Part shown: positions 8,702-64,000 of the stretch, in pieces
Layout: each line of letters starts with the position of its first letter
Position numbering within the stretch: the first letter of the stretch is position 1
Source of the DNA: Branchiostoma floridae
Taxonomy: Eukaryota; Chordata; Leptocardii; Amphioxiformes; Branchiostomatidae
DNA length: 64,000 nucleotides
Direction: 5' to 3'
Assembly (NCBI RefSeq): GCF_000003815.2
Contig: NC_049982.1
Location: forward strand, 31,852,560-31,916,559
Translations under genes and position numbers: made by a program
Notes under the pieces: generated by a model
Databases searched by the model: none
What the model was told of the DNA's origin: nothing
The model's input: the letters and a program-made list of their open reading frames with translations, nothing else

Positions 8702-11700
8702 ATGGACCCGGACGACCCGTACGAGAGCCTGCCGAAGGAGAGTAGTCTGGCGGCGCATTTGGGAGCGGGAGCTCTGGCAGGCATGGCCGAACATTGCATA
8801 ATGTACCCCGTGGATTCTGTCAAGGTTAGTGGCCCTAACACACACCCCTCTGCTTCAACACTTTAAATATAACCTTAACAGTTACCTAATAGGTTTACCA
8901 AAGTTTCTTTAGCCACCATCAATATTCTTTGATCTGTGAGCGAAATTTTACACTGTGTGTTTTTGACACGGTCTATCCAAATTTTGAGAAAATCGCAAAA
9001 CCGGCGTGAGAGATTTTGAAAATTAATTCCCTGAGGATTTAAGATAGCGTTGTCATGTTGTTTGCTTATTATTGAATTGTTGTGGACTTGTTTTATGATT
9101 GTAGTAGTTGTCATTGTTTCGATCGAGCATATGTGGATGTGGTTGAACATGTGCACAACTGTCACGACCCTTTGAGGTCAACATAGCTATAGCTGCTTGC
9201 ATAAACTTTGAGGGGAGGGGGGCGGACCAACACATTTTGTTGTGCATATAGATCATAATCTTTTATATGGACGGAACGTGGCATAGTTCTCCCTCAAAAA
9301 CTAAGGTCTCCATTTTTTTACAGTTGTCTTTGCCAACATATCATTCCCGCTGAAGTCACTTCCTAGATTCCTAGAATCTTTTTTCTCATCTCACCTGATC
9401 CAGGACCTGACCCACTCTATTGTTTACACATGACACGCCCCTGTTTTACATGTAGGTGATACAATGTACTGTATATCCTGAAATATTTGCAGATCCTTAA
9501 ACTTTAAAGTGTGCAAAATTTGCTACGTCATCGCCAACTCGTCATGCCACAAACAGGTGGCCACATTTCCGTCCTGTTGCAAACTATAAGCCATTCGAAT
9601 ATTTCGCAAATTTCGTGGGCGACAGTAATTGTAGATAATATGTCAAAGCCCCTGAGATGTAAACAACCTCATCCCGATAATTGTTTTTTTATTTGCACAA
9701 CAATGTACGGAACATAATGTTGGTGTACAAGTAGATCACAGTAGTTGTCTGCAAACATTTCACAAATAATCTAAAGCAAGGGAATGTTTGGGCAATGTTG
9801 ACGTCTTATCACTTATCTTGTGAGTTTTCGTACCTGTAACGGTTATGTCACTTATGTTTGTACTAACGGGAGTGGTGTGAGAATGAAACAAGTGCTGACA
9901 TCGTTAAATATTAAACAAAACCAAGGAAAACAAGCATTGCCCATCCTGTGTATTATGTAACTGAAGGACAACATTTTAGGAAGGGCTGTCAAACTTTTTT
10001 GTTTGTGAAGGTGCGAGGAATGGTTAAAAATTTTTGTTCAATCTGCTCCATCCAGACGCTGGAAAGAGCACTGAGTTCGTGGCTTCTAACTAGCAGCTTC
10101 TGAAAAGAAATAGCTGACTTCAGCTCAAAGGACATATCATGGCTCGGGTCCAAGAAAGCGAATTGTTAACACTCCTTGAAGTTTCAAGGCATACTGTGAA
10201 AGACCACTCCGTGCATGTGAATGAGATGTGTATCAGTTTCAAAGGATTCAACTTTCAAGTCCAATAATTTCTAGTCCAAAGGAACTCTTAACTTCCTAAC
10301 TCAAGAAATTTCTGTTGTCCGTAATCTTTGCAATCAGTTGCTAAGGAACTGTTAATCTAATGCAAAGAAGTTATTTGAGTACATATCGGATGCTCTTGTG
10401 GAATCTTGTTCTATAAATATGATTGGTCTGTGTATCCAGGTTAGGCTTATTTGCTTGGTAAAGTAGACTGATCCGCTTTATAACCTTCACTTTCAATGTA
10501 AGCCAGGGCTTAAATTACATGCCTTACATTTTGTTCGTGGATTTCTATTAAGATTCTATTGGATTAAGATTTCTAGTGAAGATATCATCCAGTTATTATA
10601 GTTTTACACTCTAGAAATGTTTTTCCTTTGTTCATCTAAATCACGTGTGATGCTAGGGCTGTGTACCAGCACTGTGTACTATATCGTAAAAATCGTATTG
10701 TCCCTATAGAATACAATTTGATGAATAATAAAGATTGAAGAGTTTCATGTCGTTGCAAAGCTATATACTCTGCAGTATACTGTAAGCTTCATTGCGTATG
10801 CCGAAATTGTTCCATGGCAAGAGCAGCAGCTTGAGTATTTTTACAGACATATTCCAGAGCTTGAAATACCCACTTGCACACTTGGAAACACAACCACACT
10901 TTGCTTGGCGCAACTTAATTTTAAATCCAGGTAGCCCAGTGTGCAACCTGAAATTTTGCAGTTGGAACACTGCTTTTCCTCCGCCTACGTGCAAAATCTT
11001 TTGCATTTATTTCTTGACAAGAATATCTAAACATAAGTAGCTACATGTAACTGGCAGAAAAGATAAGAGCTAAGTAGCTGAGTTGAAGACAGTGATAACT
11101 TGGGAGTTTGGAAACCTGAAAATGCTAAAATGTTTATGGCGCAACCTGCCTTTTGACTATGGTTGAAAAAGTATTTCAAGCACTAGATTCTCCAAAAATG
11201 ATGTTGCAGGTATTAGCCTTACTGTAGGCCACATGAAGGTGTCTATGTGAAGTCTTGTAGTGCTGCTAATGTACTATTCGTGTTACCTAGGGAGCATGGA
11301 ACTGCTGTTATAATAGTGAAGTGGACCTCTGTCATTGTGTCCCTCTTTGAGGACTCTTAGCTCTGCAGTCGTGCAAGCTATTGAACATACCTTGATACCA
11401 TTTAGGGCTATAGAATATCAATATAGGGTAGGTCACTACATGTGTGGAAACTTTTCTCAAAATGTTGGCAGTAGATGTGGGCACTGTTATATTGTACCAA
11501 TACGATGCCGTTTTTTTCCTTTTATGACTGATCCGAAAAAACACATGAAAACCAGTGGACCAGATTTTGGACTGATTAAAAAATGAACACACATTACATT
11601 ATATCAGCAGGTGTTTACACATTGTTGGGATTACTGGTTTAAGAAAATAATGTGTAAAGTAGAGTTCTTAATTATATCTACAAGTTTCTACAGTCAAACA

Positions 11701-14700
11701 TACAGAAGCAGTTAGAATCGTTTACATGGAGATAGGATTTTAAGACGCCAGTGGGAGTCGGATAATCCACCAAACAGATTCCTTTGTAGCGAATTGGACC
11801 ATTGTTTAGAGTATGCCCTTTCACATTAAGTTTTCACAGACAACTTAGGTCCAGATCCAGGTCCAGAGTAAGTCCCGTTGAAATGAACACATATACATAT
11901 ATAAATCTAATATATAAATAAACAAATAAATAATTTAAGCATTACACCATCCATCGGGTCTTGACTGTGGTTGTTGTTTACTTCATATTTCAGACACGTA
12001 TGCAGAGTATCATACCCGAGCCCGGCGCGAGATACCGTAGTATCGCCCACGCCTTCAAAACCATCATCCGACAGGAAGGACTGCTGAGACCCGTGCGAGG
12101 CGTGAGCGTGGTGGCGGCGGGGGCGGGGCCCGCTCATGCTCTGTACTTCTCGTGCTACGAGCAAATGAAAAGGACTTTAGGTGGCAACAGTCGTGGAATG
12201 GAGCCTGGACACTACCCCGTGGCCAATGGTAGCAATGTTTGTTTTTCTTAGGTGTGTCGTTGAAGAGGTTCATCAGTCACGTATGAACACAGTTAATGGA
12301 TATTTTCTAATCAGTGACACTTTAAAAGGCGTAACCACGTACCTCCAAATTTTCAATTCATGGAGTGACCTAGTCTTATGTGAGCAGGAGACTAAGTCCG
12401 AGAGGCAGGCTTTTAGCCTAGCATGCGTCAACGCGTCATCTGGACGCACTTTTCTTAGAATAACAAGAAATTTGATGCCCCTGGACGCCCTATACTGGGG
12501 AGAAAATCCTCTGATAAGCATGAAATTCTGATTGACCAGGGATGCTACCAGGTCATCTGTGGTCTCAGTCTTCTACTGTGACATCTGTAACAGTATTTTT
12601 GCCTCTTGGGATACCTTAGAATGCACTGTTTTAACTTAAAATCATCAAAAACATCAGACCCCCTACAATAGTCACTTATTGCGACTCACCAATAAGTTTG
12701 GACTCCCTATGTATTATAAAATCCTAGCTAAAAGCCTGCCGAGAGGAGACTGGAAGGGGGGTAAAGATTCGTGGAAATCTTTGACCTAGAGTCTTGTGCT
12801 CTCAAGAGGCTAGGTCACTCAGCGAACTGTCATGTCACTGTTTGAAGAATAGTCTATTAACTTCTTTAATGTATTTTTACAAAAGAAATTATAGATATAC
12901 ACACACAGAAAACACAATGGTAGCAATGTTTGACTGTAATTTGTGTGGATGGTAGGCTAAACCAGCCGTTACCGATTTCCCCAAAACAAACAGATGTTAG
13001 ATTCGTGGCAGCTACATATATATATACATACTCCTAAACATGGCTTTGTTTTTTTAATAGAAATGCTAATGCTGTGTATCTTACAGTTATAATCCATGGG
13101 AATGTATTGCATGTTACGACACCATATCAGTGAAGGGGGAAATTGTGCCCTTCCTGATCCAATGATATCATTGGTCACAGCTGCTACAGTGTGAAAATAG
13201 ATGGTCATGCAGATGTCACCCATAGGATCAAATCAACATGGGCTAACCTGAAAATTTTATTTTTGAACTTGCTACAAATTTTTGAAGTTGTATATGTTGT
13301 AATGCTATACTGGTTTAAACTTAAAGCTTTTATGTTTATTACAGTATATATGCTTCCTTGTGAAATGTTTCCTAGCATTTAGTCCAGAGACAATAGAGTT
13401 TCGCGCCATAATCAGTTAAGGTCTACAGCAATAAGTAAGAATTTATTTAGTGTCAAAAATGGTTGGTTAAACTGTTAAAGTTTTGAGTCCTTTTATGGGA
13501 AGCAGTTTGTTTTCCTCTTGTTTCATCTTGTATTCCAGGTGCGGCAGGGTGTATCGCAACAGTGTTTCATGATGCTTCCATGAATCCAGTAGACGGTACG
13601 TCGGTCAGTTGTTGTAGTGGGGGGTGATAGTGCTAAATATTCAAATTATGATATTAAAGGCCTAGGAAAAAATGATGTTTCCTGTTTCAGTCCTGAAAAA
13701 AATTAGGGTCAGTAGGTAGGGATTGTCTTTTTTTAATTTTTTTGTATAGACTTTTTATAGACTACAGTTAAACAAAGTACATGTATGAGGACACTTATTT
13801 TCAATCTCAAACTTAACACTTCTGTGGATATATTTGTCCTACATTAGATAGAACAGTTGCTTTACTTGAATAGGTAGCAGGCTGAGCTAAACAAGAAATC
13901 TTTTAAAAAAAGCTGTGCCTTGCCGCGTATTTTATGTTATTTTGGTAAGTTAGACTAGATTCTACGCTTAAAAATCCCGAGTTCCACATGTCGCCCCCCT
14001 CCCACCCAAGTTCTACATGCGGGAAAGCTTGGGTGACTTCTCCAGGTGCCAATCCAGTCCCAAATCTTCTTTTCACACAATACAAGCTCTATCAAGGACA
14101 TTCATAGTCACAAATGTCTTTAAAAGGACTAAATGTACTTACCTGACTACTAGTCGCCTAGTTGATATTGTTCCTATGTGTACCTCTATGTTGGAAATTT
14201 ACCTCATTATCATAATTTATGTCAGATGAATTATTGGCACATTAAACAAGTTTTGTAAAACTTTTTGACCCACAATGAATATGCATTATTTTATATTACA
14301 AAATAAGTTCCTTCTGAGTTTTAATACTCGCCTGGAATGTACTATTGTCAAACTAAGCCATGAAACTCGGCAAGGAAAGAAGGGCCTTTGGAAGGGGCTT
14401 TGGAAGGGCTGGGTTAAAAGGTCCGTCCATCGGTCCATCGATCCATGGATCCATGGAAGAAAGCTGGCGTAAAGCCTTGCCGGCGGCAAGGCAAAAATTC
14501 TAAATGGAAACTATTTGACTCCATTGTTCACCCAAGAAAGGATAGGGCAGGTATTTCTAGGGTATGTCGGGAAACAGGAAAGACAACATTATTTTTCCTA
14601 GGCCTAAGGCCCAATCTACACACAGTATTTACCGATATCTGTGGAGATGTCGGGAGGGATCTAGAACGTAGGGGGCCGGACACCCATGGTGCTTGCAGTC

Positions 14701-17238: not shown

Positions 17239-17742
17239 TGTGCTGAACTAGTACGATGCTCTTGACCAAAACAAACTCGACTTTGGGGGGAAAAAAGTCC
17301 AGGTTTTCAACATATTGATATGGTACAACAAGGTTGCATTTATACTCGGTGAATGTCACCAACACCAACAGACTGTCATCATCTAAGGTAGATTCAACTT
17401 ATGTAAAGAAATGTCCAAAACTTTAATTCTGTATCATTCAGTCCTACAATGGGGTTTTAGACTTGTGGTTAAGTGTCCACCACTTAACAATACTGAAGGA
17501 TCATATCAACTTTAGGTGTTACCAAATAGCCTTGTGCCTTTTGGAAATAGTGTTACAGTATGTAAGACTTTCTGTCATTTCGAAAAGTTGAAGACCTGTG
17601 GAACTGACTTGGGGAGTGTTAAGAAAGTGGGTTAAGAATCTTTGTGAATGGAAATAGTAATATGTTGAAAATTGTAAAATCTGAAAGATGAATGAAAGAA
17701 AAATTGTAAAGGATAATACATTTATAACAGTTGTTCACTATA

Positions 17743-17975
17743 GGTGCACTCTCACTGCACGTGCGTCACGCTTGCGTCACTGCGGGGTTCGAAAGATACT
17801 CAACGAATTTCAGAGAATTTCTTTTTGTGTATTTTGTTGTCTTCTAAGTCATATATTTATGCATTACGCAATATCTAAATTATAAAATAATCGGAAAAAA
17901 ATAGCAAAACAGCGATGCAGTGAAGGAACCCCACAGTGACGCAAGCTTGACACAAGCTCGGTGAGAGTCCACCTT
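17743..17975. mobile_element. Harbinger-like MITE, copy 2
   Basis: Same termini and subterminal GCTTGCGTCACTGCGGGGTTC block as the copies at 843 and 20148. The right end is more diverged. Confidence 0.7.
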
Positions 17976-20147
17976 ATGTAGCACCTAGTAGCACATAGGT
18001 CAGCATTTTTACTTGGTGTTTCAGTAGCAGGGTTTATATTTGCAGGGAATGACCTATAAAGCCAGTATCATACTTTAATTCTGCACAAAGTTTCTTAGCA
18101 ATTTGAATTCAGCCAGTGCACATATAATTAAAACTTGGGGACAGTATTTCATTCAAGGGACAGAGAGAAATTGTTACAAGAAAAAAGTGGGGAAAAAGAC
18201 CTAGACAAGAAAACCAATGTCTTGCAGAAGAAGCTCTCAGATGTTTTGTGACATGTACTCATTTTTCTGATCATCTTCTCGATACCTACATTCAATTTTA
18301 GCTTTGTTTAAAGATCATTTGGCCATAGAAGTCAGTAGTCTATTTAGACAGTGGAGGGCAATTGACATCAGATTAATATGCAGAAAGTTGAAAAGAAATC
18401 AATATTAATGAATCATTTTATCACGCCATTACAAAAATTATGTAATACAGTTATTTTCTTGCACAACCAGAACATTTTCATAGTCCTTCTGTCTTCCTCG
18501 GGGCAATACTTTACACTACTAGGTGGTACAGGCTTAGTCATGTTTGGGACAGCTTTCTTCTCACTGGAGTGCCACCTGGCAGTTGGAAGTGGCACTACAT
18601 GTCAGTATTGCCCTAGCAAGTGAATCAATCCCATTGGCTGTGCAACATAAATGTATTACCTGTATCCAGAAATTGTTGTATATTGTAACAGAATGCAAAC
18701 ATTCAATATGCTTCTTGTTGAATTGACCCATAGTATGGGTCCTACAATTTTGCAAGTTCATTCAAGACTACATTATGCCAGTGTCACTTAATACTTCCAA
18801 AAGCACAAATATTAAGCTCTCATATTCATAAACATGATGGAAATAACAGTTGACAACACAGACAATAGAAATGCATACAGTAGGAATGTTTTTTTTAAAT
18901 TGATGTTTTAATGGGTAGGTACTCTGAAAAGATATTGATTGTATATGCTGGAATTTGTTTACTGCATTTCAGAATTGTAGTCTATTATATAATTTCAGAT
19001 CATTTTAAATATGGACAAGAAAAGTTATTGGGAGAGTCTTGTGTCAAATAAATACATTTTCAAAGCTTAACACGTGGTTGTTTTTGTACTTCATATTAGA
19101 GGGAATAGATGTTTCAATGTGATCAATTGTACAGCATATTCGCTTTTAGGCCATGGCAAGGGAATGTTGTAGTAACTTGTAGATGTCATCCTCTACACTT
19201 TAAAATTTAATGCAGGTGAGCAAAAAGAAAGTTGTACAAAAAAACATGATGCCACATTTAAAATTTAGACAACTAACACGTTGTAAAAGGAACTTTATTC
19301 TCATATTAAGGTCCTTATATATTCGTATTCGTGTTCTTACACATGCACAGAAACATGCAAGACAAGTAGATATTGTACCATGAAATGATTGTCTTTTCAA
19401 AATTTTTCAACATAAAAACTATTTTGACAAAATCAATCTCAATCAGACACACCAAATTAACTGAGATTTATTTTGTTAATCTTTGAAAGTACATGTGATA
19501 TTTTCATATATGTTTTGTTACCAGTAGCTTACCAGGCATAGGTTTTCACTGTCTTGCCCAAAAAGTTAAAAATCAAGCTTCTTGTATATTTTTGGATACT
19601 TGATGATAAAAAAATGTCTAAACCTGAAAGAATCTTTCTCTAACACTCATCAACAGATTGTAAACTTGCACATGGCAAAAACTGGACAAACCAAACTTAT
19701 TTGCAACACATTTGATTTCTTGATTATATACAATCTTTTACTTAAGAACTCTCTATAGTAGACAACAATCTTCCAACTTGGGACTGACAAAATGAAATAC
19801 AAATTTGCAGTTCCTGATATATGTCAAAAATCAAATTTAAGTTTGATTACTGAGGTATAACATACAAATATAAAACAAGAATGGAAAAGAAAAATATTGG
19901 TCTAATTTTCGTCATAACTCATTGTAGACTAGCGAGAATACACTTCCATTCTGTCATTTAAGCCTTTTGAATATAATCGTTGATAGGTTCATTTCAATTG
20001 GAAATTTCTGAGAACAAAAACGTTCATCAAATAAACGCTGCCCGATTCAATCACAGTTTGTAGACCTTTGATACAAATTCTGAACTGCATACACGTGCTT
20101 GACGACAAAGACTTGAATTTGGGACCGAAAAGGATGACATATCGGTT

Positions 20148-20396
20148 AAGGTGGTATCTCACTGCACTTGCGTCAGGCTTGCGTCACTGCGGGGTTCATT
20201 CACTGCGTCACTGTTTTGTTACTTTCTCTGGGGATTTTTTATAATGTAGATATTGAGTAATACGTAAAAGTATGACTTAGAAGATGCAAATACACAAAAA
20301 GTAAGAAAATTTGTTCTTGGTCTCTGAAATTCGTTGAGTATATTTCGAACCCCGCAGTGATGCAAGCGCGACGCAAGTGCAGTGAGATACCACCTT
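20148..20396. mobile_element. Harbinger-like MITE, copy 3
   Basis: Best inverted-repeat pairing of the three copies. The left AAGGTGGTATCTCACTGCAC pairs with the right GTGCAGTGAGATACCACCTT. Flanking TTA on both sides. It lies just beyond the nvd stop codon. Confidence 0.8.
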
Positions 20397-20464
20397 TAGC
20401 AATCTCTCCTCTTGATCACAACATGGTCGGCTGATCTTTCATCATTGCTCTGGTAGGGCTAAGG

Positions 20465-23400
20465 TTACCAGTCCAAGCTTGTCCGTTGGGTTGTGAATCG
20501 CGGGCTATTTTTACTGTAGAACTGGGAGTACCAGCGCCGATGACGTACGATGGCGGCGTCTTCCTTCACCAAGACCGGCTTGGCCGGGTAAGACTTGTTG
20601 TTCCAAACGGTGACGTCACGTTCCAACTGGAAATCATCATACAATACATCATGTTACAGATGTAAATTCATAGTTTAAAATTCAAAGCAGAAGACAATGA
20701 ATCCATTTTTCACTTCATGTCAACAAAACAAGTACCTCGTATAGTCGTTAACGTTACTTCATAGTTTGAATTACAGAACAGGCAAAAATTCTACTTTTTG
20801 AAATTAGAAATTAAAAAGATTAGAATAGGATGAAAAACTCACGATGTATTTACAATCAATTCCTCATCATTGTCAAAAATTAATCTAAATTTGATCGCAG
20901 ATGTATAGGAAACCTATGACATCATATACTGTAAATGCATTTAAGTTCGCGGGGATTTAATTTCGCGGTAGCGGGAAAATGGACTTTTCGCGGTGGTTTT
21001 AATTTCGCGGTAGTACCATGCACTGTAGTCTCTTACTGTTATGGAAAAATGTTCGCGGTGGTTTTAAATTTGCGGTTAAGTGTCCGCCGCGAAAACCGTG
21101 AATATTAATCCACCGCGAACATTTCTGCATTTACAGTATATCAAAGTGGGTTCACACGTGCGTACGCGTTCAAGTCCGTATGAAGTCCGTATGGAAGCCT
21201 CTACTAGTATCGACACCGGGTCGTTCAAAAAATAATAGAAATTTGACAAATAAAGACAACATGCCAAACCAATTGGCTGGCCGAGGAGTATGGTTTGTGA
21301 CCCAGCTAATTTCTCTGCCATGTTATCCGTCTATATTTGTCCAATTTTTCCTGGGACATATGGAGTCTGTTATAGGCTAAAAAATCCATACGGACCTCGT
21401 ACGGACTTGAATACGTACGCACATGTGAACCCCACCCTAATATTTTTAGATTTTAGAAAAAAGAAAGAAAAAAACTCAGTCTAATTGTAAATGTCAGTAG
21501 CTGTGTCGTGGCTTACATAATATTTATATATCATATATTATGCAAGTATTCTTATCTTAAAATATCCTTTGCTTACCTGTACGGCTTCTCCCCACTGCAC
21601 TATCTTAGCGAGGAACGTCGGGGTGCCCCGGCTGGCGTAGATGCTCTGTGTGTAGCGCAGCAGGAGGGGTTCCACTGGCGTGATGGAGCTCACCAGCACT
21701 ACGTGCATCAGGGGACCATCAATGTACAGGTACACCACGCCCGGGCCGTTCTGGTGGTTTGAGTTTCAGTTTACTTAGATCCACAATTAGCCTAATTAGA
21801 CGCTATTCTTCCTTCTCCCTGCACATCCATATTTACATAGAATATATTTAAAAACAAACATACAGAGACATTCAGAGTGACAGTAGAGAGCAAAATAACA
21901 TAGTTCGCAATAATCACAGTCCAATACTTCGCTAATTGTCGCATGAGTTGTTCCACGACCCCGACATCCTGTGCAAAAAGCGCATTTTCTGAGAGTTGGA
22001 TTTTGGTTTCGGTAGTCTGATTGTCGTGGATCGTTGTCGTGAGTGTACGGCGTAGATCTCAATAGCATGACAGTGATGTGTCAAGGTTATTGTAAGGTTA
22101 CACTAGGATTTGGCGACCTCATACCTCTATGGAAGAGCTTGAGCTGTTATGCAAATGACTTACACATTTACATGATTTATGCTTGGTGCATTTATGCAGT
22201 TTCATCATTGATTAGCTTACATATGCCACAAATAAAAATCCCGTCATTTATTAAGCAGTTTGCATAATCAATATAATATTGCATTGATTATGCAAATTAG
22301 TCCCTTATTTGTATATTTGGTATCTGTGTATGTTCCACCAGTCATGTTTGTATTGAAGTCCAGTTATGGAAATAATGGAAGTTCCTAATTAATTATGCAA
22401 ATTAAGTATGATTTGCATCACATATATCTACTGAGAGACTCAGAAATAATATTTTACTTTCTATTCATCAATGAATATATCATCGACATATTCATAACGG
22501 ATGAACCTCTATTTTTTAAAAGTACAAGTAATATTAGCTTCCCCGTATCAATGCACGTACAATAGCCTGTACCAGGCTTCGTAGATCGGTGGTCTAATTG
22601 TAGAAATTGGACAAATAGAGTCATAGCACACTAGGGGAGTCAGCCGGCCAGAACAATCATTTCCTCACGTAGGTCGCAAGCTGTTCCCTAGCCGGCTGTA
22701 TTTCTCTGGCCGGCTTACTCCTCTATTTGTTCCATTTCTATGGTTTTCCCAGCGACCTATGAAGTCTGATAGAGACTACGTACAATAGATCATAAACATA
22801 CCTGTATGGCACGGGCCTTGACACTCGGCAGGGGGATTCTGTAGCCGAAGAGATACATGTCCATGTCCACGGTCATGGTGCCGAACTGTGTGTCTGGCGC
22901 GGGGAAGGGTTGCCAGTCCGCCTCCCACTGGTGTGTGAAGAAGCCGGTGAAAGACGACCAGATGTGGCGCAGGTCATTCCCTGTCGTTACCCCGGGCCCG
23001 TGCAGGTGGTTCAGGTGACCGATGTCCGCTCCGTTTTCGGATATCTCCTGTTCATATCAAGACAGAAAAAAATGAAAACAGAAATGCAGTGAATGTCACT
23101 CGAAGGCAGAAGGAAAATGTCCAGACTTTGCATGATGTACAAAATGACCAGTAAACTGGTGGATGGACGTACCGACTGATAAGTATCTAATACCAGCTCA
23201 AAAAAGAACAAGAAACAGTCATGCCTTCAAGTAACACAGTTACCAACCTAGGATTGCTGTACGTGTGTAGACAGACCCTCCAGACTCGACTTAGGCCACA
23301 ATGCTCGAACACCAACTTCAGTACCAAGGACAACCCCTCTCTCCCTGTTTCCCCTGTCTCTCCGCTCGCTCTCCCTCCCTCTCCCCTCTCTTTCTTTTTC

Positions 23401-24173
23401 TTGGGAGTGATGGTCGACCATTTTTAAATGCAATTTAGGTACTGACACGCTGTGACTTATGCAAAAAAACTAACATGTATGTCTTTGCCATTAATGAGGA
23501 GATTGATTTGTGAATTTAGTTAGTCTATTACTAACAATGTTTTTGCATTTCGTATCTATTTTTGCATTTTTTAATTAATTACTTTATTCGTTTATGTTCC
23601 CATAACCCCCACCCTCTACCCCACTGGACCTTTGGGCAGAGCGACAGTAGCCTTTACCAGATGCTGTTCAGTCGAAAATTTGGGTAAGTCCAATTTTCAT
23701 GTTGGATTTTACAATTCAACTAGTTCAAGAATGACTTCTACCAACACAAATGAACTTTCGAGTTAAAGTTATTGATTGATTGCTTGATTGATTGATTGAT
23801 TGATTGATTGACTACCTCCACATGTGCGTTGATGAAGTGTTCAGACAGCCCCCGGCACGTCCACTCCCCGCTCTCCACCTCGTCCACCAGTTTAGGTGTC
23901 CATGAGGGCTCCTCCCCGTCACAGTGGTACCAGATGTAGATACTGCCGTTACACTCCAGACACGTCCACGACTTCACTCGGGCCACGTCGGGAACTGACG
24001 GAACATTTTGTGTGGTTGTTTTTATTGAAATCCATCTTATTTTATCGCTTAAACTTAAGAGACATCAAAGACATACAGTTATGGCTACGAAAATAACAAC
24101 TACGTGACTATCAAACAGAACACTATGCAATATCGAATCGTAAACTATCCGTGTATGTGTGTGTGTGTGTAAT

Positions 24174-24213
<40 letters not shown>

Positions 24214-26583
24214 ACGAAGGTATGTGTGTGTGTGTGTGTGCGTGTGTACGAATGTGTGTGCGTGTGCGTGTGTACGAACGTGTGTGTGTGTGCACGCGTG
24301 TGCGTCTCTGTTTCTCTCTCGCTCTCTCTGTGCTTTTATGTGTGTGGTGTGTGTTTGTGTGTGTGTACATGTGTGTGTAAGTGATTGTGTTAGTACTAGT
24401 GTGTTAGTAGATGTGTATTAGTATGCTAGTGTGTGCGTTGTGTGTATGCGCGCGCACGTGTGTGTGTGTAAGTGTGTGTAAAAGGAATTAATATAACAAA
24501 TGATTGCCCAACCTTTAGCGGCATACGGGATGTGCATACACTTGCCGTCCTCTCCCCGGTACCGCCACCCGTGGAAGGGACACTCGATACAGTTGCCGAC
24601 CACCCGTCCCCCCACGCCCAGGTTGGCGCCCAGGTGCGGGCAGTACGCGTCCACTACAGACACTGTCCCGTTCTCCTGACGAAACACCGCTAGATGTTCC
24701 CCTGTGGATGCATTGGTGTGTCAGACTTAATCTCCAAGCAGATCTTGCGTGGCATGATATAGTATCATAAGCTGGGGAAGGAGTTTAGCCGGCAGAGGAG
24801 TTAATTGGCCACTAGGAGGAGCAGAAACACGTTTCTGAAAAGATCGCCCCTCCCAGTGCCTTTGAGCGGTTCCGTTCTGCCGCAGATTTTCGCGTGGCCA
24901 AACAGTCAGAAAAAAACAATAACTTAACTTTCCGGAATGAAACACTGTGATGGGAAAGATTTTCTGCGAAAAATACGGTCGACGCTCGGGCGATTTTGAA
25001 ATTTGGCGAGCTCCAGCCGATCTACAAATTCGGTCGGCGTTCGCTTGAATTGTGGCGCAGGCTTGAAAATGCAGCAAACTATAGATATGTCATTTCTGAA
25101 AATCATGTGAATACTAGTAACCCAGCTAGTTGTCACCAGTCACTCTTCGGCCGTCAAGATGACTGTGCTTGAAAGTTTACCTTGTAGGTTGCATTTTGAA
25201 GTATTAGTTGCGCACAAATATTTTAGACTGTTTAATATTCAACAAAAGCTGTGTTTGTACAATTATTAATGACTGCATTCAGTGTTTTCTTGCGTTCAGA
25301 ATTGCAATTGAATTCAGCCCCAGAGTGGCATAAACGTAAATGTATGCAATGGACTAATCTCCAAGCAGAAGATAGTATCAAAAGCTGCCAGCGGAGTAAA
25401 GCCGGCCTATGACTGTGTTTGGCTACCGGGGAAAAGTACACCTCTTGGCTGACAACACTCCTTGGCCAGTTTAGTATCTTATAATATCGTAGGATCTGCT
25501 TGGAGATTGAGAGTCTTATCTGTAAAAGCGCTTACCTAAAGCGACAACCTCCTTGACCTGACCCCGTTGTAGCAGACGAGACTCGAGAATCCCCCACCAG
25601 CCGTTGGGATAGACCGGCGGGAGGTGGCCCCTCTGCCGCCGCCTGCGGGCGTCGTTAGCCATGGCCTTCATGTTCCTCGTCCCGTCCGGGTGATACCCCA
25701 GGTCACCGAGCTGACGACAGAACTCCATGGGAGAAAACAGTACCTGGTAGGAGTAGGCACCGGTACAGAAAATTCAGGTACAGGTACGTTCCGGGTCAAG
25801 AGAATCAGGTCCAGGTCCGGACCTGAACCTGGACCTTATTGTCTCTGAATGGGCAATATTCAAAACAATGGTCCATATTTCGCTACAAAGGAATCTGTTT
25901 GGTGGTGTAACTTCACATTAACAACACTACCGACCAAGTTTGACTGTAGAAACTTGATAAAAATGACTATAACATATATCAACTCTCCTCTACTTCGCTC
26001 TTCCTATTTTCTTGGACCAATAAGCCTCAAAACACGTGAACCGCCGTATTGCCGGAATGATCTGTTTATTGTAAAGTTTATTGCAAATTCTTGCCCGTGG
26101 GCTAATTGCAGGTAACATAAGAGATTCCAACAGTGTGAAAACAATATCACAAGTGTCTGCTCTAGTCTAAAGCCCGTAAAAGCTAACTCTAGATCCTGGG
26201 TTATTGCCTAATACATGTATTGGGTTCGACTCCTTTTTCGAAGACAGTGGAAGATCCCACCTTTTCTATTATGTGTATTTCTATTTATTTCTTAATCGGT
26301 CCAACATCCGGTCCACTGAATTTTTTGTCAGGTCCGGTCTTTCCGGACCGGTCCAACAAAAAAAACGGTTTTGTACCCCTAGTACCTGATAAAGCCAGAT
26401 GGCACCAGCGAGACCAATGGCGAAGAGCAGGAGGATTTCTACGGACGGCCATTGGAAGGCGAGTAGCGTTTCTCCTCGTAGCAGCACCCAGGCGGCGTCC
26501 ACTCGTGTCGGGCCGTGTTTCAGACCGACCACGGACGCCAACACCGCCAGCAGGACGGCGAATAGATGACGAACACGAAACAT
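20465..26583 (-). CDS. nvd: Neverland/DAF-36-type Rieske oxygenase (cholesterol 7-desaturase)
   Basis: Seven coding exons: 26583-26386, 25743-25536, 24701-24513, 23994-23816, 23047-22802, 21750-21577 and 20626-20465, giving 451 aa with clean phases. Family enzymes convert cholesterol to 7-dehydrocholesterol in the ER. An N-terminal hydrophobic region (about residues 1-66) supplies membrane anchoring. The Rieske [2Fe-2S] ligands are C156-x-H158 and C176-x-x-H179 (CPHLG and CPFHGW). The mononuclear iron site is E262-x3-D266-x2-H269-x4-H274. The [11 protein letters not shown] and FGYRIPLP blocks are also family-like. The ATG at 26583 is chosen because CCCTTTACAG lies 2 nt upstream, implying a non-coding first exon. 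The exon 3 donor is an unusual GTTGGG. All iron ligands are present, so activity is expected. Intron 1 is transposon-derived (see findings). Confidence 0.95.
20927..21138. mobile_element. TACTGTAAATGC MITE, copy 2
   Basis: Nearly complete. Begins TACTGTAAATGCATTTAAG and ends TTTCTGCATTTACAGTA. The interior repeats TTCGCGGTGG / TTTTAAATT and its complement CCACCGCGAA. Lies in nvd intron 6. Confidence 0.85.
21146..21437. mobile_element. Long-TIR MITE with GTGGGTTCACACGTGCG ends
   Basis: Left arm GTGGGTTCACACGTGCGTAC and on through TCAAGTCCGTA; the right arm is its reverse complement with about four changes (TACGGACTTGAATACG..GTGAACCCCAC). Arms are about 35 bp. It sits almost directly beside the preceding MITE in nvd intron 6. 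Confidence 0.8.
22571..22780. mobile_element. Foldback element in nvd intron 5
   Basis: TAGAAATTGGACAAATAGAG at the left pairs with CTCTATTTGTTCCATTTCTA at the right. Inner GCCGGCCAGA / TCTGGCCGGC and outer AGGCTTCGTAG / CTATGAAGTCT arms also pair. Confidence 0.65.
23768..23812. repeat. (TTGA)n microsatellite at nvd exon 4 donor
   Basis: About ten TTGA units, ending immediately next to the exon 4 splice donor (CTACCTC on the plus strand). Length variation here could affect splicing. Confidence 0.85.
24150..24480. repeat. (TG)n-rich microsatellite in nvd intron 3
   Basis: Long GT/TG tracts interrupted by TACGA and a CTCT block. Cys/Val and His/Thr open frames over it are artefacts. Confidence 0.95.
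24728..24800. mobile_element. AATCTCCAAGCAGATC MITE, truncated copy
   Basis: Starts TAATCTCCAAGCAGATCTTG, continues AGTATCATAAGCTG and GGAGTTTAGCCGGCAGAGG, then loses similarity. Right end absent. Confidence 0.65.
25356..25508. mobile_element. AATCTCCAAGCAGATC MITE, short copy
   Basis: AATCTCCAAGCAGA at the left and TCTGCTTGGAGATT at the right. The interior has AGTATCAAAAGCTGCCAG / TGGCCAGTTTAGTATC, shared with the copy at 30533. Lies in nvd intron 2, 28 bp from the exon 2 donor. Confidence 0.85.
25748..26381 (-). mobile_element. hAT-like non-autonomous transposon forming nvd intron 1
   Basis: On the minus strand the element begins TAGGGGTACAAAACCG and ends CGGTGCCTACTCCTA. The ends pair as imperfect TIRs (TAGGRGTA..ACCG), and many GGTCCGG/CCGGACC subterminal motifs lie inside. 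It is flanked by near-identical 8-bp direct repeats, TCAGGTAC and CCAGGTAC, as expected for hAT target duplication. The flanks are the splice sites themselves: CAG|GT on the donor side and CAG|GT on the acceptor side. A truncated relative sits at 11750-11880. No transposase is encoded. Confidence 0.7.
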
Positions 26584-26879
26584 TTCTGTAAAGGGGTATA
26601 GAGGGAGCATTTTAGAAATTAGACGTTTCGACAGTACCTTTGAAAAACCGTTGAAATTTACACTGACTTATTGTGGTCGTCGCTAATTCTGGATCGCCGA
26701 TTTTTAGACTGCTTTTGCGGTATAAAATTCAATTCATGTCTACTTTTTGCACATATTTATAGCTGCAAGATGTATGTGACTTTTAAAATCACCCCCATAC
26801 ATTGTACGTGGATTGATAACAGTTACAGTGTATATATTGTGATGGACATCAAGTCAAGTCTACAGCTATTCTCTGCATA
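26584..26879. other. nvd 5' flank
   Basis: Sequence upstream of the nvd start. A splice acceptor (CCCTTTACAG on the minus strand) abuts the start codon, so this is probably a 5' UTR intron. The upstream exon was not found. Confidence 0.4.
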
Positions 26880-27178
26880 AGTGGGGCACGGTGTGGCCCA
26901 CACAAAAAAAGAAAGGGTGCCAAGCGATTGTTCTTATGATAGAAGTAATATCGGAATATATTTCAACTATTTAACCGGCACCACTAGACAATCTCATGAC
27001 ACCATATCTATCATGGTCTACGATGAGAAATCAATTCACCATCGCGAAATTCGTGTTAAGTGCTTTCCCAAGGTGTAAAGTGCCGATCCCAAGGGCACCG
27101 CGTCGGGGTATTGTAGGTATCGAACTCGGGATCTCTTGATTCCGAGCCTAACGCGCTACCAGTTATGCCACATCAACG
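26880..27178 (-). mobile_element. tRNA-derived SINE, diverged, minus strand
   Basis: On the minus strand, box A (TGGCATAACTGGTAGCG) and box B (GAGTTCGATACC) lie at 27170-27115. They are followed by CCCTTGGGATCGGCACTTTACAC, which resembles the body of the SINE at 6632. The tail is degraded. Confidence 0.6.

Positions 27179-48296: not shown

Positions 48297-64000
<15,704 letters not shown>

Follow-up and report, generated by a model that had tools for sequence, protein, structure and literature searches.

The window, by which we mean the whole stretch of 64,000 nucleotides analysed here, corresponds to C4:31852560-31916559 of the Branchiostoma floridae genome (513 Mb, 431 contigs). A complete gene on its minus strand is referred to as nvd; we take it to encode a neverland/DAF-36 Rieske oxygenase, a class that we assume to be defined by a Rieske domain together with a KshA-type C-terminal domain. 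Both of the domains required of the class were present in the predicted protein (Pfam Rieske, 3.5e-20; KshA_C, 2.6e-28), and its best PDB match was a 3-ketosteroid 9alpha-hydroxylase, as were its nearest solved relatives, so that the product is compatible with the neverland/DAF-36 family. The positions of the gene and of the repeats associated with its first intron are listed in Table 1. Elsewhere in the window, long minus-strand frames at 49189-52370, endonuclease-like and reverse-transcriptase-like, resemble a non-LTR retroelement by eye. Two similar stretches beyond the 3' end of nvd, at about 20150-20395 and at 17740-17975, have inverted-looking halves (CACTGCACTTGCG... / ...GTGCAGTGAGA) and are probably another dispersed repeat.

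Table 1. Features of the nvd locus and of the repeats in and near it (window coordinates)
Feature	Position	Strand	Description
nvd gene	20465-26583	(-)	complete, seven exons, 451-aa product
nvd exon 1	26386..26583	(-)	66 codons, ends ...WLYQ, phase 0
nvd intron 1	25744-26385	(-)	642 nt, phase 0 after codon 66; GTAC (duplication copy 1) + element + CCAG (duplication copy 2)
nvd exon 2	25536..25743	(-)	
nvd exons 3-7	24513-24701, 23816-23994, 22802-23047, 21577-21750, 20465-20626	(-)	
Target duplication, copy 1	26382..26389	(-)	TCAGGTAC in gene sense; predicted to give 5' splice site CAG|GTAC; same register as family copies
Target duplication, copy 2	25740..25747	(-)	CCAGGTAC in gene sense; predicted to give 3' splice site CCAG|GTAC; 7/8 identical to copy 1
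Miniature inverted-repeat element with nested repeat	25748..26381	(+)	TAGGAGTAGG...ACCCCTA; from search of own genome
Nested SINE-like repeat	26071..26279		about 205 bp, inside the element; near-perfect 10-bp duplication TCTGTTTATT / TCTATTTATT around it
Right terminus of element	26358..26381		23-bp deletion relative to usual family end
Second, more decayed family copy	11553..11867	(+)	colinear BLAST pieces; upstream of mitochondrial-carrier exon

Read on the minus strand, the sequence ...CTT TAT CAG closes exon 1 at 26386 and GTA CTG TTT opens exon 2 at 25743, and the intron between them reads GTACTAGGGG...CTCCTACCAG. The coordinates given in Table 1 for the intron and for the element within it are those of the original prediction and proved right on direct reading of the sequence. 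Only 4 nt on each side lie between the element and the intron borders. The 8-mers bordering the element, GTACCTGG and GTACCTGA, match at 7/8 positions in the fixed register of the element family described below, a value obtained by direct comparison, the right end there carrying a deletion. Near-identical 8-bp repeats had been predicted at this point and were found; the perfect 8-mer that appears when the border is shifted by one base is not the duplication, as CAGGTACT takes in the first base of the element itself, T. The intron had also been described as almost exactly one inverted-repeat element, which holds for its borders, but its content is the element plus the nested repeat.

Judged within the window, the inverted ends of the nvd copy are poor (10/16 positions ungapped, 7/8 over the first 8), and local alignment of its two 200-nt ends scored no better than letter shuffles (33, against a mean of 26.5 and a maximum of 43 in 300 shuffles). 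The deletion at the right end partly explains the value of 10/16. Allowing for the duplication, intron 1 begins and ends where the mobile element does.

The element was compared with the rest of the genome in a whole-genome search using 25748-26381 as query, in which 40 of 5791 first-look candidates were scored, and all counts from it are therefore lower bounds. At least 56 matches were obtained: nvd itself, 22 left parts of the element, falling inside query 1-323 and 74-82% identical, 16 right parts (query about 528-634) adjoining left parts, and 17 matches to query 324-529 only, 83-85% identical, which represent the nested repeat alone and form a separate repeat family. In an alignment of 20 copies the ends were shared, and they correspond to 25748 and 26381 in nvd, as expected from the element borders originally predicted. 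Most of the 22 copies start with TAGGGGTGGGTA or a near variant, and TAGGGGTGGGTACC-like terminal inverted repeats occur at both ends of family copies. Over 306 sites of the left element part, nvd differed from the commonest letters of the family at 7.2%, and the 20 other copies at 5.8-16.5%.

A right end was counted as recognised at an end-fit score of at least 44, a cut chosen after the scores were known, and by this rule it was recognised in 17/22 copies (none in L010, L011, L013, L024 and L027). Duplications of 8 bp matching at 6/8 positions or better flank 12 of the 17 two-ended copies; three match at 8 positions (L015, L016 and L019), four at 7 and five at 6, where the chance of a match of 6/8 or better is 0.004 per copy. 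The remaining five (L012, L017, L021, L026 and L042) showed no duplication match (2-5/8). Perfect duplications were also present at six places beyond the 22 (L056, L060, L067, L120, L122 and L123).

Transposons of the hAT superfamily make 8-bp target duplications, with A preferred at position 7, and have TAGGG-type ends and a YARNG-type start. The family shares with hAT miniature elements the 8-bp duplication and the TAGGG-type ends, the sole traits behind the label, and on these the element would be classed as a hAT-like miniature element. The TAGGGGTGGGTACC-like terminal inverted repeats of family copies also begin in the YARNG manner. Among the 12 copies with a duplication, 10 have A at position 7; the nvd duplication differs, with G there in that reading.

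One relative, L067 (C11:13186121 region), is 1205 bp long, starts with TAGGGGTGGG, ends in CCCCTA and has a perfect CCAGGTAA duplication and a different middle; no open reading frame >125 aa is listed at its locus. L066 has the same left border as L067, and the site seems to occur twice. In the window itself, the left similarity of the second family copy (Table 1) may extend to about 11510 by eye, and the exon downstream of it matches PF00153 at 1.6e-12. This copy, which has no nested repeat and shows indistinct ends, is probably intronic.

The nested repeat must be younger than the element, because it lies within it. In an alignment of 12 copies of this repeat, the one in nvd differed from the commonest letters at 6/183 sites. 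It contains GGTTCGACTCC, which we take to resemble a tRNA B box; ARAGORN detected no tRNA in 25700-26600. A search of 20000-27000 against Rfam with E up to 1 gave 6 matches, all below their gathering scores. A candidate mir-3569 overlapping the element was rejected at 23.1 bits, the gathering score being 50, and a 24-base core sought in viral contigs gave no match.

Since splice sites have a consensus of their own, part of the similarity between the two flanks is expected at any intron, as the original prediction had cautioned for CAG|G at both borders, and the consensus was found to account for about half of the match. The flanking 8-mers of 10 other introns (5 of nvd and 5 of its paralog) matched at 3-5/8 positions, and a rough independent-position model built from those 10 introns gave P of about 0.008 for a match of 7/8 or better. 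When the flanks of the other introns were cross-paired, 2/100 pairs reached 7/8. The flank match alone is thus only moderately unlikely given the splice consensus and is insufficient to carry the claim of an insertion by itself; the claim is carried instead by the fixed register that the family provides and by the paralog without the intron.

The same figures bear on the explanation that an older intron was present first, that the element entered it, and that later deletions left only the element, the flank match being splice consensus. The share of the match that consensus covers speaks for this, and family copies do occur in probable introns (11553-11867, and L056 at an acceptor). With 4 nt left per side, however, trimming of the older intron would have had to stop precisely at the element on both sides, the flanks of the element form the 8-bp duplication that the register of the family leads one to expect, and the paralog, which has the other five introns in common with nvd, has none here. 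We consider this explanation very unlikely.

A protein search of the B. floridae genome gave 13 matches, among which there was one other nvd-type locus, C8:11205094-11211039, lying in region L053 (C8:11203600-11212600). The paralog encodes a protein of 458 aa with the same two main Pfam domains as nvd, and the two proteins share 257 identities over 451 aligned positions (57%), which suggests that the duplication of the neverland-type enzyme in this lineage is old. Homology and the splice consensus were used to set the exon edges of the paralog. So set, its exons 2-6 equal nvd exons 3-7 in length (189, 179, 246, 174 and 162 nt), and all five of its introns match those of nvd in codon and phase (135/1, 198/1, 258/0, 340/0 and 398/0). 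The sixth intron position of nvd, 66/0, is uninterrupted in the paralog, where the insertion site falls within the 427-nt first exon; nvd exon 1 aligns to the N-terminal part of this single exon. The site itself is aligned without a gap, with AAWLYRLLLCP in the paralog and AAWLYRLLLCPL forming part of that pairwise alignment.

With the paralog serving as a stand-in for an outgroup within the same genome, the intron is thus absent at the codon concerned and the other five are shared, in line with the gain originally proposed. The converse, that intron 1 is ancestral and was lost from the paralog, would be in keeping with a duplication that is probably old at 57% identity, and intron loss is common in evolution. 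Loss would nevertheless leave unexplained why the whole nvd intron consists of a mobile element and its target duplication, and the insertion of an element has a direction, the empty state coming first. Because the paralog has no intron there and insertion is directional, gain in nvd is much more probable than loss in the paralog, to which we give even less weight than to the older intron. Intron 1 was most likely gained by nvd.

The proposed origin of intron 1 is an insertion into exon 1 that duplicated an 8-bp target, both copies of which would then have supplied splice sites. We put the probability of this explanation as a whole at roughly 0.9. According to it, a hAT-like miniature element would have inserted in the coding sequence TTTAT-CAGGTAC-TG in exon 1 of the ancestral nvd, duplicating the 8-bp target TCAGGTAC, which contains CAG|GT. 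The first target copy would have become the 5' splice site CAG|GTAC and the second the 3' splice site CCAG|GTAC, with the pyrimidine-rich end of the element (...CCTACTCCTA) acting as a polypyrimidine tract. Splicing would excise the element and exactly one target copy, giving ...TTTATCAG-GTACTG... and the frame ...WLYQ-VLFSP... Afterwards the SINE-like repeat would have entered the element. A loss of 23 bp from one terminus would have happened at some point. The ends of the family, the register of the duplication and the intronless paralog all agree with the de novo intron gain by transposon and target duplication that had been predicted, and the predicted restoration of the frame by removal from CAG|GT to CAG|GT holds at the level of sequence and frame.

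Use of the predicted splice sites in vivo is something we infer from the quality of the signals and the frame. The donor CAG|GTACTA has 6/9 letters of the donor consensus, the other donors of the gene having 5-8. Pyrimidines make up 13 of the 20 nt that precede the CAG of the acceptor, the joint highest value among the six nvd introns. In many family copies each end, read outward, closes with CCCACCCCTA or a similar sequence, so potentially any of these copies would supply a pyrimidine-rich stretch whichever way round it inserts.

An in-frame ATG (SPMEF) near the start of exon 2 is the point in favour of a different reading, in which the proposed splicing of the element does not take place and the element is disruptive or provides a promoter, translation beginning from exon 2. 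Exon 1, however, is an intact frame of 66 codons that is in frame at the junction, and it is homologous to the N-terminus of the paralog, including a hydrophobic stretch. The nested repeat and the divergence of about 7% suggest that the element has resided here for a long time, and exon 1 is undecayed. This reading is most improbable, and we would place it between the older intron and loss in the paralog.

Further exon-splitting copies were sought by looking for AGGT in front of the element start. An exact AGGT shortly before the start was found at 21 places (control, 1). With a shorter element end, 49 places including these 21 were found (control, 23), so that perhaps half of the 49 are chance and not element starts. 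When up to 2 mismatches were allowed at one spacing, 644 places were found (control, 9). In all, 56 AGGT-flanked start-like places were examined, comprising all 49 and 7 of the places listed first among the 644. At 14/55 of them a right end was recognised together with a duplication matching at 6/8 or better, and by a looser rule this was also so at L067. Recognition of the right end was strict, so that degenerate copies could be missed, and the search patterns themselves miss ends as divergent as those of nvd. Under the looser rule, L054 and L073 matched at 7/8 at a poor end. No convincing second exon-splitting copy was seen among the 56 places.

Translations of the rejoined flanks of L057, L077, L073, L056, L122, L117 and L121 were searched against Pfam, and only L056 was above the curated cut-off. 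L073 (C19:2753972 region) has the flanks CAGGTTAG / CAGGGTAG and a degenerate right end; its rejoined flanks are open over 88 + 89 codons and have no protein-family match (best Pfam match 0.049), and it is a possible second exon insertion in a putative coding frame. The family member L056 (C3:5244989 region) is 403 bp long, has a perfect TTCAGGTG duplication and lies exactly on a 3' splice junction, and the exon there encodes an LDL-receptor class A domain (PF00057, 6.6e-7). As the junction reads, the downstream copy of the duplication restores the acceptor, and a splice signal would have been duplicated here as in nvd, but at an existing intron.

The gain of introns by transposons that bring target duplications is known from introners. 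Gozashti et al. (2022, PMC9860276) attribute 27,563 introns, spread over 175 of 3,325 genomes, to introners, in families of 5 to >2,000 copies per genome, most of which leave mRNA length unchanged. Among animals and land plants, that paper places introners in two groups only, both animal, and the words Branchiostoma, chordate and tunicate are absent from its main text. As in the introners described there, a non-autonomous inverted-end DNA element with its target duplication would have become an intron in nvd. According to the legend of Fig. 2E in the same paper, both splice sites of the Florenciella introner were already present where it inserted, and the same would apply to nvd. Unlike the introner families of that paper, the nvd case comprises one intron, and it is a single event and not a demonstrated introner family.

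Intron gain has been discussed for amphioxus before. In the passage of PMC5802833 concerned, an intron gained by amphioxus PRHOXNB is said to contain the MITE LanceletTn-2, the reference cited there having a GDF8/11 title; going by that passage, PRHOXNB and nvd are alike in having a gained amphioxus intron with a miniature inverted-repeat element. The relevant part of PMC3087553 describes 'mirage' minisatellites in amphioxus globin and Adh3 genes, where AG/GT-bearing duplications are proposed to create intron positions, and this precedent in amphioxus is what would recommend a tandem duplication of an AGGT site as the source of nvd intron 1. Mirages as described in that part are tandem duplications of exon-intron boundaries, whereas in nvd a dispersed element has been inserted: the intron contains no repeated exon-intron boundary, and the sole tandem repeat reported inside it is a 12-nt unit x 2. 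What the intron contains already refutes an origin by this route. The one Branchiostoma passage in PMC3488318 is a species list, and no earlier report of nvd intron 1 was found among the titles and abstract openings of the open-licence papers listed. The mechanism is already known from introners elsewhere; for a chordate, nvd intron 1 illustrates it clearly.

Animal introns with a still-readable origin are rare. A single genome here contains the element, the duplicated target and a sister gene lacking the intron, so that the origin of this intron can be traced step by step. It is conceivable, if doubtful, that the family, a large hAT-like one, is pre-adapted for making introns, offering a pyrimidine tract in either orientation and gaining both splice sites from an AGGT-bearing 8-bp target in an exon, and that nvd is one of several gains in the lineage. 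If the proposed mechanism is right, splicing should remove those of the many family copies that insert at an AGGT within an exon.
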